Below, piece by piece: positions 16,219-36,761 of a stretch of 64,000 nucleotides of DNA; position 1 is the first letter of the stretch; every line of letters begins with the position of its first letter. A program made the translations under genes and the position numbers. The notes beneath the pieces were generated by a model. The model was not told the origin of the DNA, ran no database searches, and saw nothing but the letters and a program-made list of their open reading frames with translations. This DNA is from Geobacter sp. (GTDB taxonomy: Bacteria > Desulfobacterota > Desulfuromonadia > Geobacterales > Pseudopelobacteraceae): contig JANYBN010000127.1 in NCBI GenBank assembly GCA_025360785.1, positions 1 to 64,000 on the forward strand, given 5' to 3'.

Positions 16219-17580
16219 ATGAACGACCCAAAACTCCCGCCACAGAACCTCGATGCCGAGATGTCGATTCTGGGTGGTATTCTGATCGATAACGACGCCA
16301 TCAACCGGGTGCTGGAAAGCATCGTTCCGGAAGATTTCTACCGCGAGGTGCATCGCAAGATCTTTCTGGCGATGATGCAGCTGTCCGATCGGCGTGAACC
16401 GTGCGACTTGGTAACGCTGACCGAAACCCTGAAAAAGAAGGGTGAACTGGATGAGATCGGCGGGGCTGCCTACCTGCTCATGCTGGTAGATTATGTCCCG
16501 ACTGCGGCCAATGTCACCTATTACTGCAAGATCGTCAAAGAGAAGTCGGTCAACCGCAAGCTGATTTCCATCGCCACCGGGATTGTCACCCGCAGCTATG
16601 AGGATCAGACCGATGTCAATGAGCTGCTGGACAAGGCCCAGAAGGATCTGTACGAGATAGGCGAAAACAAACTGCGGCCGCAATATGTGCCGATCCAGCC
16701 GCTCATCAAAGAGGCCTTCAAAATCCTCAAGTCGCTCCATGATCGCAAAGAGCATATAACCGGAGTTCCGACCGGTTATGCGGATCTTGATTTGATGACC
16801 GCCGGTTTTCAACCGGGCAATCTGATCATCATCGCTGCCAGACCATCAATGGGCAAAACAACACTGGCGCTTAACATCGCCCAGCACGCCAGTGCCGAGA
16901 GCAAAAAGAAAACATCTTCGGTCATCTTTTCGCTGGAGATGGGGAAGGAAGATCTGGTCATGCGCTTTCTGGCCTCGATCGCCCGCGTTGATTTGAGCCG
17001 GATGCGCACCGGTCACTTCCTTGACACTGATTGGCCCCGCCTCACCAGAGCTGCCGGAGTGCTTCACGATGCCAAAATTTTTATCGATGACACCCCCGCC
17101 ATTAGTGTACTGGAGCTCCGCTCTAAAGCCCGCCGCCTGAAAAGCGAACATGATATCGGTCTTATCATTATTGATTATCTGCAATTGATGAAGGCAGGCA
17201 CTAAAATCGAGTCGCGGCAGCAGGAAATTTCCGAGATCTCGCAAGCCCTGAAGGCGCTGTCCAAAGAGCTTGGTGTACCTGTAGTCGCTCTGTCCCAGCT
17301 CAACCGTGAACTGGAAAAACGCGCCGACAAGCGCCCGATGATGAGCGACCTTCGTGAATCCGGCGCCATCGAGCAGGATGCCGACGTGATCATGTTTGTT
17401 TACCGCGAAGCCGTATATTGTGAGGCCTGCCGCAAGCGTGACAGCTCCTGCACCCTGGGCCATGATCGTACCGCCGAACTGATTATCGGCAAGCAGCGAA
17501 ACGGCGCAATCGGCACGGTAAGCCTTGCCTTTTTCGGCGAGCATACCCGTTTTGAAAACCTGACTGACCGCAGCGAATAG
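16219..17580 (+). CDS. dnaB: Replicative DNA helicase DnaB
   Basis: 453 aa. N-terminal DnaB domain (about 5-110, PPQNLDAEMSILGGILIDN) and a RecA-like C-terminal helicase domain with Walker A (IIAARPSMGKTTLALNIA, about 210-227), the DnaB motif SLEMGKEDLVMR, Walker B (LIIIDYLQLM) and the QLNRELEKRADKRPMMSDLRESGAIEQDAD signature. It is the hexameric 5'-3' helicase of the replication fork. Cysteines in EAVYCEACRKRDSSC near the C-terminus are an extra not typical of the E. coli protein, although the family varies here. It precedes the GspE-like gene by 40 bases on the same strand. Confidence 0.97.
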   Translation: MNDPKLPPQNLDAEMSILGGILIDNDAINRVLESIVPEDFYREVHRKIFLAMMQLSDRREPCDLVTLTETLKKKGELDEIGGAAYLLMLVDYVPTAANVTYYCKIVKEKSVNRKLISIATGIVTRSYEDQTDVNELLDKAQKDLYEIGENKLRPQYVPIQPLIKEAFKILKSLHDRKEHITGVPTGYADLDLMTAGFQPGNLIIIAARPSMGKTTLALNIAQHASAESKKKTSSVIFSLEMGKEDLVMRFLASIARVDLSRMRTGHFLDTDWPRLTRAAGVLHDAKIFIDDTPAISVLELRSKARRLKSEHDIGLIIIDYLQLMKAGTKIESRQQEISEISQALKALSKELGVPVVALSQLNRELEKRADKRPMMSDLRESGAIEQDADVIMFVYREAVYCEACRKRDSSCTLGHDRTAELIIGKQRNGAIGTVSLAFFGEHTRFENLTDRSE

Positions 17581-17620
17581 ATTTCAAATAATCTGATTCA
17601 TTCAACTATGGAGGTCGGCC

Positions 17621-19273
17621 ATGACTGCACAGATAAAAAAGGGGTCTCTGGGCGCAATACTCTCTGCCTGCAACATCATCACCGAAAATGACATCAACGC
17701 TGCACTGGAGGAGCAGGGACGTACCGGGGCACGTTTAGGTGAAGCGCTGATCACTCTGGGGATCGTAACTCAGGAGGATATTGACTGGGCACTGTCCAAT
17801 CAACTGGATCTCCCCTACATTCGGCTCAAAGCGAACATGATCGATCTGGAGGCGATTCGGCTTGTACCTGCAGCAACGGCAAGAAAATTCAATCTGATCC
17901 CGCTCATCAAAGCGGGAGGTGAGTTGAGCATCGCTATTTCCGACCCGCTCAACAAGGCTGCAATCGCGGCTGTCGAACAATTGAGCGGCTGTCAGGTCAA
18001 TATTTCAGTGGCATTGATCCGTGAAATCCGTGAGATGATCGAGGCCTGCTACGGCAGCAGCGGTCAGGAGCAGTTAGGTTTTGATTCTTCAGCCTTTTCA
18101 GAAAAGGTTCTGGATGTCATTAACGGCGACCTGGGCGGTGGCAAACTGCTTGACTACCTGCTGATTTTTATTTTACAGAACAGACTCTCTTCGCTCTCCC
18201 TGCAGCCGATGGGGGACACCGTGATGATCAGCGGCAGGAGAAGCGGGGTTTCGCGACCGATTGGGTCATTAGCTGGAACCTATTACCCTGACCTCACCCT
18301 CAAAATCCGTAAAAACATCGGCATCACCGCTCATAGCGAACCATCTTCCTGCGGCTTGCTTACGTTCAGCTACCGCTCTCACCCGATCACGTTCCAGATT
18401 GCCTCTATGGCCGGCTATGGCGGCGACTATATCACCATCCAGCCGCACCTGTCTGCCGGCGTTCCGGACCGGCTTGCCGATCTTCATCTTCCCGCCGGAC
18501 AGGAAGCCGATTTTATCCGGTTGTCACGCAGGCAGCAGGGTATTACCTTCTTTGCCTCGCGCAATACTCAGGAACGTGATCGTTTTATGGATCTTATGCT
18601 GGAGGAGATCGATACCGCCGGCAAGAACGTGATTATTCTGGGTGAAGGTCCGGGAAAAATGAACAAACGCTTCCCGCGTATCCTTCTGCCGCGCAATGAA
18701 GCTGAACGGGCCGAAACCATCATGAGGGCTTTGGACCATGCCCCGGACATTCTGGTCATAGAGGATGTTACCGAGGGGATGCCCTTCACAGCCGCCTGCC
18801 GGGCCGCCATGCGGGGCAAACTGGTTCTGGCCGGGCTCGAAACTCGCGGGACCCGCAATGTCCTGCGCCATTTACTCCTGTATCAGCAGCAGAACTACTT
18901 CCTGCCGATCTTTGTCAACGGACTCGTCTCTTTTAAAGGCATTCAACTGCTCTGCCAGGAATGCCGTACCGACTACTTGCCCCCGTCCGAGGAACTTGCA
19001 GCGATGAACCTTACCACCCCCCCCGCTTCGTTTTACCGCACAACTGGATGTGATGCTTGCGCCCATAGCGGTTTCAGCACAAGACAATTTCTGACTGATA
19101 TTCTGATCTTCACTGACGAATTTCTGCAGATATTTGAACAATCCAGTGATGTCGCCGCCCTGGAGAACTACCTCGGCATGGCTGGCTATCATGGCCTGGC
19201 GGATGAGGGACTGCGCCTCCTGATGGCAGGGGATGTTTCTCCTGAAGAATATATTGCATCCGTTGTTCTTTGA
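17621..19273 (+). CDS. Degenerate GspE/PilB-like protein without Walker A (probable pseudo-ATPase)
   Basis: 550 aa. The N-terminal MshEN/GspE-N type domain is well kept (about 1-145, LGAILSACNIITENDINAALEEQ, GARLGEALITLGIVTQEDIDWAL). The rest follows the PilB order but is eroded: where PilB has GPTGSGKTTT this protein reads GITFFASRNTQERDRFM (about 307-323), and the Walker B region is DILVIEDVTEG (about 375-385). The four zinc-binding cysteines of the PilB C-terminal domain remain (CQEC about 445-448, GCDAC about 476-480). The reading frame is open and the SD (GGAGGTCGGCC) good, so it looks functional but unlikely to hydrolyse ATP. It is immediately upstream of pilT. A regulatory partner of the pilus motor is my inference. 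Confidence 0.8.
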   Translation: MTAQIKKGSLGAILSACNIITENDINAALEEQGRTGARLGEALITLGIVTQEDIDWALSNQLDLPYIRLKANMIDLEAIRLVPAATARKFNLIPLIKAGGELSIAISDPLNKAAIAAVEQLSGCQVNISVALIREIREMIEACYGSSGQEQLGFDSSAFSEKVLDVINGDLGGGKLLDYLLIFILQNRLSSLSLQPMGDTVMISGRRSGVSRPIGSLAGTYYPDLTLKIRKNIGITAHSEPSSCGLLTFSYRSHPITFQIASMAGYGGDYITIQPHLSAGVPDRLADLHLPAGQEADFIRLSRRQQGITFFASRNTQERDRFMDLMLEEIDTAGKNVIILGEGPGKMNKRFPRILLPRNEAERAETIMRALDHAPDILVIEDVTEGMPFTAACRAAMRGKLVLAGLETRGTRNVLRHLLLYQQQNYFLPIFVNGLVSFKGIQLLCQECRTDYLPPSEELAAMNLTTPPASFYRTTGCDACAHSGFSTRQFLTDILIFTDEFLQIFEQSSDVAALENYLGMAGYHGLADEGLRLLMAGDVSPEEYIASVVL

Positions 19274-19314: not shown

Positions 19315-20382
19315 ATGGCTCGCATAGATGCACTCTTTAACATGATGAAGGAGCAGGGAGCATCCGACCTGCACCTTTCCACCGGCAATCCCCCTATTTT
19401 TCGTCAGCGGGGCGAAATGGTGCGGCTCAATTTCAAGGCTCTGGGACATGAAGAACTGAAAACGATTCTGTTCGAGATCTTGAGTGAAAAGCAACAGGCA
19501 CAGTTCACCGAGACCAAGGATCTTGATTTTGCCTACGAAGTCCCCGGGTTGGCGCGCTTTCGCGGCAATATCATGATGCAGTATCGAGGGATCGCCGCTG
19601 TTTTCCGCATCATCCCCACAAAAATACTTTCGGCGGATGAACTGGGACTGCCGGAAGGGGTGCGTCGCATGACCAATTTCAAGAAGGGGATGGTTCTCGT
19701 CACCGGTCCGACCGGGTCCGGCAAATCCACGACTCTAGCCGGCATGATCGACCTGATCAACTCCACCCGCAAGGAACATATCCTGACTTTCGAGGATCCG
19801 CTGGAGTTCATTCATGAAAACAAGTTGTCACTAATGAATCAGCGACAGATCGGCGAGCACACCGAAAGCTTTGCCTCGGCCCTACGTGCGGCTCTTCGAG
19901 AAGATCCTGATGTCATACTGGTGGGTGAAATGCGCGACCTGACAACTATTCAACTCGCCATGAGCGCCGCCGAAACCGGGCATCTGGTCTTTGGAACCCT
20001 GCACACCAGCACCGCTGCCAAGACGGTCGACCGTATCATCGATGTTTTCCCGACCGACCAGCAGGAGCAGGTCCGCGCCATGCTGTCAGAATCGTTAAAA
20101 GGGGTTATCTGCCAGCAGCTTCTGAAAACAGCCGACGGCAAAGGACGCGTTGCAGCGCTGGAAATCATGCTCGGCACCCCGGCCATCGCCAACCTGATCC
20201 GTGAAGGGAAAACATTCCAGATCCCCTCCATCATGCAGACCGCCAAGAAGGACGGCATGCAGCTGCTGGATCAGCATCTGCTCGATCTGTTGAAAACTAA
20301 AATGGTCAACCCGGAAGAAGCCTATCGTTGCGCTGTTGACAAGAAACAGTTTGAGCAATACCTGACACCGGTAGACAAGTAG
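19315..20382 (+). CDS. pilT: Type IV pilus retraction ATPase PilT family
   Basis: 355 aa. Walker A GPTGSGKST (131-139), the Asp box FEDPLEFIHENK, Walker B DVILVGEMRD and the His box GHLVFGTLHT are all intact, and the C-terminal AIANLIREGK matches the AIRNLIRE motif specific to PilT. It should power pilus retraction as a cytoplasmic hexamer. The start has a strong SD (AGAGGAGG). It follows the degenerate GspE/PilB-like gene by 41 bases, so the two are probably co-expressed. Genomes of this group often carry several pilT paralogues and I cannot tell which this is. Confidence 0.93.
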   Translation: MARIDALFNMMKEQGASDLHLSTGNPPIFRQRGEMVRLNFKALGHEELKTILFEILSEKQQAQFTETKDLDFAYEVPGLARFRGNIMMQYRGIAAVFRIIPTKILSADELGLPEGVRRMTNFKKGMVLVTGPTGSGKSTTLAGMIDLINSTRKEHILTFEDPLEFIHENKLSLMNQRQIGEHTESFASALRAALREDPDVILVGEMRDLTTIQLAMSAAETGHLVFGTLHTSTAAKTVDRIIDVFPTDQQEQVRAMLSESLKGVICQQLLKTADGKGRVAALEIMLGTPAIANLIREGKTFQIPSIMQTAKKDGMQLLDQHLLDLLKTKMVNPEEAYRCAVDKKQFEQYLTPVDK

Positions 20383-36595: not shown

Positions 36596-36609
36596 CTCAA
36601 AACAACCTG

Positions 36610-36761
36610 CTTATCGAGAGTGGTGGAGGGATAAGGCCCTGCGAAGCCACAGCAACCGGTCACATAGACGCCAGGTGCTAAATCCTGCCGAAAGGCAAAG
36701 ATGAGAGGTGTGCTGTGCTGCTATCAGCCCCTTTTCATCGATTAGATGCGAAGGGTTTTTT
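36610..36761 (+). promoter_or_regulatory. SAM-I (S-box) riboswitch with terminator, upstream of metX
   Basis: The aptamer reads CTTATCGAGAGTGGTGGAGGGA...GCGAAGCC...GCAACC...GGTGCTAAATCCTGCC...AAAGATGAGAG (36610-36708), the SAM-I consensus; P1 is CTTATC/GATGAG. Downstream CCCCTTTTCATC pairs with GATG-C-GAAGGG, then TTTTTT: an intrinsic terminator ending one base before the metX ATG. The P1 3' strand GATGAGAGG is complementary to the terminator's left arm, so it can form the antiterminator when SAM is low. SAM should therefore switch metX off. Confidence 0.93.
36728..36761 (+). terminator. Riboswitch-controlled terminator that also contains the metX SD
   Basis: The right arm GAAGGG is the only SD-like sequence before metX, six bases from the ATG. 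Terminator formation should therefore hide the ribosome binding site as well. Confidence 0.8.

Follow-up and report, generated by a model that had tools for sequence, protein, structure and literature searches.

The window analysed here is a stretch of 64,000 nucleotides from a Geobacter sp. genome (contig JANYBN010000127.1, forward strand), in which an intact open reading frame with an ATG start (17621-19273, +) encodes a GspE/PilB-like protein of 550 amino acids, hereafter X. The genes dnaB, X and pilT lie on the same strand, with pilT starting 41 nt downstream of X and having its own Shine-Dalgarno sequence.

16219..17580, + strand: dnaB, ending 40 nt upstream of X on the same strand; a neighbour in family f1 only
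17610..17614, + strand: Shine-Dalgarno sequence GGAGG of X, 6 nt upstream of the ATG and seen before most orthologues
17621..19273, + strand: X, putative PilB/GspE-like pseudo-ATPase, 550 amino acids (ORF list, Pfam, NCBIfam, AF2 model, Foldseek)
17804..18067, + strand: MshEN C-terminal subdomain (residues 62-149; Pfam PF05157 at residues 62-149)
18137..18490, + strand: N2D-type domain (residues ~173-290; AF2 model and Foldseek to PilB/PilF/GspE)
18491..18916, + strand: degenerate RecA-like C1D domain (residues ~291-432; alignment and AF2/Foldseek; dN/dS 0.098)
18953..19060, + strand: tetracysteine C445, C448, C477 and C480, each present in 92 of 92 orthologues
19315..20382, + strand: pilT3-type retraction ATPase with intact motifs (TIGR01420, 472 bits; adjacency to X)

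X is a member of the PilB/GspE superfamily in which the N2D, C1D and tetracysteine fold is kept, the domain order being MshEN, N2D, RecA-like C1D, tetracysteine domain and C-terminus. The original prediction, made from the sequence of the window, had described an MshEN-like N-terminal domain, a C-terminal tetracysteine and an intact 550-codon frame with a good Shine-Dalgarno sequence, and each of these is borne out; Pfam PF05157 (MshEN) scores 64.7 bits, and the MshE-related NCBIfam model c-di-GMP_motif (NF053729) scores 51.8 bits, above its cut-off of 38. The T2SSE model (PF00437) matches the C-terminal half only (residues 360-544, 52.1 bits; cut-off 24.9), and the best NCBIfam models, PilB and GspE (equivalogs TIGR02538 and TIGR02533), both fall far under their cut-offs (107 bits against 675.65 for TIGR02538). 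In the host genome, ten T2SSE matches score more than 370 bits and several others are of PilT type, and X is the weak outlier at 53.5 bits. PilB and GspE align to X across its entire length, with about 25% identity or less between X and PilB, and the X profile matches PilB structures at 1e-58 to 1e-64. Prediction of the structure of X alone, which had been proposed as a check, gave an AlphaFold2 model (from 38 orthologues; mean pLDDT 85.4, pTM 0.63) with the PilB/PilF/GspE fold, whose core it matches in Foldseek at E about 1e-27. The central 140 residues had been thought to be related to nothing obvious, which proved wrong: by alignment, AF2 and Foldseek they are the N2D of the PilB/GspE fold.

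The ATPase motifs were compared between 92 non-identical orthologues of X (28-84% identity) and 8 active paralogues, in which the motif residues are all retained.

18557..18580, + strand: position of the lost Walker A loop (residues 313-320), Lys replaced by R319; R in 89 of 92 orthologues, K in 0 of 92
18641..18655, + strand: position of the lost Asp box (residues 341-345, GEGPG); G341 in 92 of 92, against E in all 8 active paralogues
18743..18766, + strand: Walker B-like strand PDILVIED (residues 375-382), GE replaced by ED; E381 in 84 of 92, D382 in 82 of 92
18818..18841, + strand: position of the lost His box (residues 400-407); K400 in 79 of 92, with H at 400 not listed in any orthologue

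The Walker A loop of X reads GITFFASRNTQERD, as against GMVLVTGPTGSGKT in the PilB of the same genome, and its predicted loss is confirmed: the P-loop glycines, Lys and Ser/Thr are gone, as is the catalytic Glu, the P-loop sequence is absent across the 92 orthologues, and Walker A is gone in a smaller alignment too (48 of 48). The Asp-box Glu residues have become Gly (341 in every orthologue, 345 in 85 of 92), H400 of the His box is mostly Lys and H407 has given way to variable residues. The further claim that the usual acidic boxes are lost holds for the Asp box (E341, E345) and for the Walker B GE, but acidic residues, E381 and D382, remain at the Walker B strand. Since the same losses are found in all 92 orthologues, chance or a sequencing error or frameshift artefact can be excluded as their cause. 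It had been suggested that orthologues with an intact Walker A, or frameshifts in sister strains, would point to recent decay; Walker A, the Asp box and the catalytic Glu are missing from every orthologue, nearly all of which have an open frame. The alignment thus strongly supports the view that X is a pseudo-ATPase, a non-catalytic protein as first supposed, with no working ATPase site and with a motif loss that is old and fixed in all orthologues.

The neighbourhood of the former active site is conserved (H373 and G307 in 92 of 92, besides R319 and E381), and it may be that an Arg-Glu pair fills the empty nucleotide site. The same conservation, together with the invariant G341, could instead mean that X has kept ATPase activity through a rewired site, in which R319 and E381/D382, for example, are at work. 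We consider this very improbable, given that nothing is left of the P-loop glycines, Lys and Ser/Thr, the Glu pair of the Asp box, the His of the His box or the catalytic Glu, and we know of no P-loop ATPase of the PilB/GspE family that works through such a site.

X is followed directly by pilT on the same strand at 134 of 136 loci (some genomes being counted twice from two collections, and six cases of overlapping frames having been read by hand), the remaining two being contig ends. In a class sample of 195 genomes, where X was called at E <= 1e-60 and PilT3 as at least 78% identity to the PilT of the window, X occurs in 80 genomes, all of them Geobacterales and all with a PilT3-type gene, so that X without PilT3 has a count of zero. 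Named relatives with X include Oryzomonas, Pelotalea, Trichlorobacter, Geotalea, Geomonas, Citrifermentans and Geobacter argillaceus. Within Geobacterales, PilT3 without X is found in 9 genomes and neither gene in 8 (lists compared by eye). The chance of all eight PilT3-less genomes also being without X is about 2e-7 by a hand calculation that assumes independent genomes, which these are not, and adjacent genes such as X and pilT3 could in part have been lost together in single deletions. The suspected link to the neighbouring PilT is upheld, in that the two genes are adjacent wherever the junction is readable and X is never present without that PilT.

Outside Geobacterales, no orthologue with an intact Walker A was found at E <= 1e-60 in the 195 genomes, and no X was found near nine outgroup PilT3-like loci; the PilT3-like gene there often lies divergent beside a thiI-like gene, without X. 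Class-wide, a thiI-like gene ('MQRKALALLSGGLDSTLAVK') stands divergent beside pilT3 or X-pilT3 (L110, L118, L120, L133, L136, L157-L160, L168). In family f1 the X-pilT3 pair usually comes after dnaB and in families f3 and f4 it is preceded by the divergent thiI-like gene, so the pair persists despite a changed upstream neighbour. The simplest reading is that X was gained once, ahead of pilT3, in the ancestor of Geobacterales, and the thiI-like neighbourhood is likely to be the ancestral site of this gain.

Later losses of X have left dnaB-pilT3 in G007, G012, G033, G157 and G066, and in the single-contig genome G193 (L154) X is broken into several frames with pilT3 and dnaB intact, a lineage-specific loss. 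X is frame-shifted in G054, and in G045 (L058:2254-2787) it has shrunk to a stand-alone MshEN of about 167 amino acids with a short tail, directly before pilT3, in which the conserved MshEN residues are retained. As several genomes keep dnaB-pilT3 without it, X is dispensable. The missing or broken copies in G007, G012, G033, G157, G066 and G193 might be taken to indicate that X is a decaying pseudogene of an mshE or pilB copy, a reading to which we give almost no credence, in view of a dN/dS of 0.12, a frame of near-constant length that is open across the order and invariant residues at the lost motifs. The low dN/dS and the order-wide conservation of the loss rule out recent decay as a general account, and it is true of single lineages only.

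By the Nei-Gojobori method (214 pairs within genus), dN/dS is 0.122 for the whole X gene, about 0.084 for MshEN, 0.098 for C1D and 0.157 for N2D, and 0.042 for PilT3, values that are approximate given a fair degree of saturation at synonymous sites (pS about 0.6). Because the ratio is about 0.12 overall and about 0.10 in the dead domain, these estimates indicate that X is under purifying selection, dead C1D included, and is not decaying. In the tree, the X sequences form a single clade (100/100; stem of 1.6 substitutions per site) apart from PilB, GspE and PilT and without a settled sister group. X is a conserved, dead subfamily inside the known PilB/GspE superfamily, and the subfamily is new.

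In Geobacter sulfurreducens, the gene GSU0435 ('mshE') lies directly before pilT3 (GSU0436), an arrangement also reported in G. metallireducens and G. uraniireducens (PMC5065972). This position and the order-wide pairing of X with pilT3 make GSU0435 probably the counterpart of X, and by extension from the X family GSU0435 would share the motif loss; G. sulfurreducens itself was sought with published primer sequences in the genomes of two families and in the loci, and was not found. GSU0435 has been listed as a PilB-family ATPase with 26% identity to PilB, among possible PilB replacements (PMC8557921), and it is cited with PilT3 as abundant in Fe(III) oxide cultures (PMC5065972). A P. aeruginosa pilT mutant regains retraction when given PilT3, and a pilT3 mutant of G. 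sulfurreducens shows late electrode attachment and a lag on Fe(III) oxide (PMC5065972). The pairing of X and pilT3 need not be a strict operon, as RT-PCR experiments in G. sulfurreducens gave no support for a joint transcript of mshE and pilT3 (PMC5065972). No Rfam match was found near X in the window, and riboswitch control of X was rejected. A SAM riboswitch (RF00162, 72.3 bits) is present in the window at 36608-36707 (+).

We propose, with moderate confidence, that X is a lineage-specific, catalytically dead PilB/GspE paralogue and the non-catalytic partner of PilT3, the retraction motor whose gene comes directly next. Judged from the sequences, the whole fold is kept and selected, the four ATPase motifs are gone, and X depends on the presence of pilT3 rather than the reverse. 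X is probably a regulator and not the motor that its annotation implies, and is best read as an accessory that regulates PilT3-driven pilus dynamics independently of ATP. Since X cannot run the ATP cycle, it would be held in one nucleotide-free, PilB-like shape. In Myxococcus xanthus, a Walker A mutant of PilB binds nucleotide poorly, assembles no pili and behaves as a gain-of-function signalling form, and the nucleotide-free state of PilB is thought to be the signalling state (PMC5544727). The MshEN end of X may sense a cyclic dinucleotide or a protein and signal this to the pilus base, and X could then tune the engagement of PilT3, or the competition between PilB and PilT3 for PilC, the outcome being that X would set when surface cells hold or retract their pili.

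Another possibility is that X is part of the assembly machine, as an adaptor or subunit without catalytic activity, within the PilB ring or as a PilC-side scaffold, with an MshEN domain that only docks and senses no ligand. The full PilB architecture and tetracysteine of X would suit such a part, GspE-type N-terminal domains do dock on partners (e.g. GspE with GspL, structure 4pht, which is among the Foldseek matches), and MshEN motif I is altered. However, X is genetically tied to pilT3 and not to the pilB cluster, and few positions are as tightly constrained as those of motif II and D108, seemingly beyond the needs of simple docking, so that we think this role unlikely.

The extended c-di-GMP motif, (R/K/L)LGxx(L/V/I)(L/V/I)xxG..., occurs in two copies and is joined by an Asp from the C-terminal subdomain (PMC11731258). 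X and MshE match over residues 9-117 to 9-117, and the residue numbering of MshE therefore carries over to X.

17645..17716, + strand: MshEN motif I (residues 9-32), altered, with R9 replaced by S and G18 by N; S/T/A at residue 9 in 90 of 92 orthologues (consensus from PMC11731258)
17732..17803, + strand: MshEN motif II (residues 38-61), intact, RLGEALITLGIVTQEDIDWALSNQ; R38 in 91 of 92, and G40, E41, L43, E52, D53 and W56 in 92 of 92
17942..17944, + strand: D108, counterpart of the c-di-GMP-contacting Asp of MshE (D108) and PilF (D266); 92 of 92 (PMC11731258)

Across the orthologues, residue 9 of motif I is S in 73, T in 12 and A in 5, and R, K or L in none, and residue 18 is mostly Q or N instead of G, from which it follows that the guanine-stacking residue of one half-site is missing. 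In motif II, Q61 is kept in 89 of 92, and position 39 is mostly F, not L. One half-site of X (R38, D108) therefore looks canonical and the other does not. The c-di-GMP signal envisaged by the original prediction is accordingly no more than a possibility: motif II and D108 are intact, but the first position of motif I never has the expected residue. Binding of c-di-GMP by X is possible, since GSPII-C of PilF binds it despite a deviating first motif residue (P335), while GSPII-B tolerates K/L (PMC11731258); as it stands, the MshEN of X would leave room for weak c-di-GMP binding, for another dinucleotide such as cGAMP, or for no ligand.

That X is a c-di-GMP receptor exactly like MshE, where c-di-GMP binds MshEN and switches PilT3, is an idea we hold only tentatively, at somewhat less than even chances. 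It would fit the score above cut-off for the NCBIfam c-di-GMP motif, the intact motif II and D108, the tolerance of PilF for P335 and K/L, the G045 genome that keeps MshEN alone directly before pilT3, and the 27 GGDEF matches of the host genome (surveyed on loci); the residues that replace R9 and G18 throughout the orthologues speak against it. The host genome also has 14 GEMM-I riboswitches. At L189 (G000:C145:63339-63809) there is a GGDEF domain with GHMVGS and GGDEY, with Ser at the position reported for cGAMP-making Hypr enzymes. This Ser-bearing GGDEF domain and the GEMM-I riboswitches make cGAMP a candidate ligand of X, and only a candidate. As a long shot, X might read asymmetric 3',3'-cGAMP against c-di-GMP through its canonical guanine half-site (R38, D108) and its rebuilt half-site (S/T/A9, Q/N18), with the dead motor body relaying the signal to PilT3, and contact with a mineral or electrode thus setting pilus retraction.

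If X is dead, one of the proteins listed as possible stand-ins for PilB could no longer be counted as a likely ATPase in Geobacter, a point that matters when pilB-deletion strains are interpreted. As a concrete partner, X would also give a handle on PilT3 and on its unexplained part in attaching to surfaces and respiring Fe(III) oxide. The term 'pseudo-ATPase' was not met in the type IV pilus literature searched, and judged against that literature type IV pili would gain a new regulatory layout in a pseudo-ATPase that is fixed order-wide and coupled to a single motor.

Among known systems, PilB (Geobacter 5tsg/5zfr, T. thermophilus PilF) resembles X in domain order, length and fold (Foldseek 1e-25 to 1e-27), whereas X has lost the ATPase motifs, falls in its separate clade and stands beside pilT3 instead of in a pilBTC cluster. 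MshE of V. cholerae (MshEN, 5htl) shares the MshEN match over residues 9-117, with R38 and D108 kept, but X lacks R9 and a Walker A and is not known to assemble an MSHA pilus. GSU0435 is like X in its place directly before pilT3, and Geotalea, the genus of G. uraniireducens, has X; in contrast to the dead X, GSU0435 has been published as an ATPase or possible PilB substitute (PMC5065972, PMC8557921). PilU is described as a PilT-dependent accessory partner whose gene often stands next to that of a PilT-type motor (PMC6762196, PMC6821130), but PilU is a PilT-family ATPase and X a dead member of the PilB family. PilB K327A of M. xanthus is, like X, an ATP-dead PilB, and one that still signals; it differs in being a laboratory mutant of a working ATPase that controls exopolysaccharide, with action on PilT not shown (PMC5544727). 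X may be the natural and permanent version of this signalling state of PilB, fused to a sensor domain and dedicated to PilT3.
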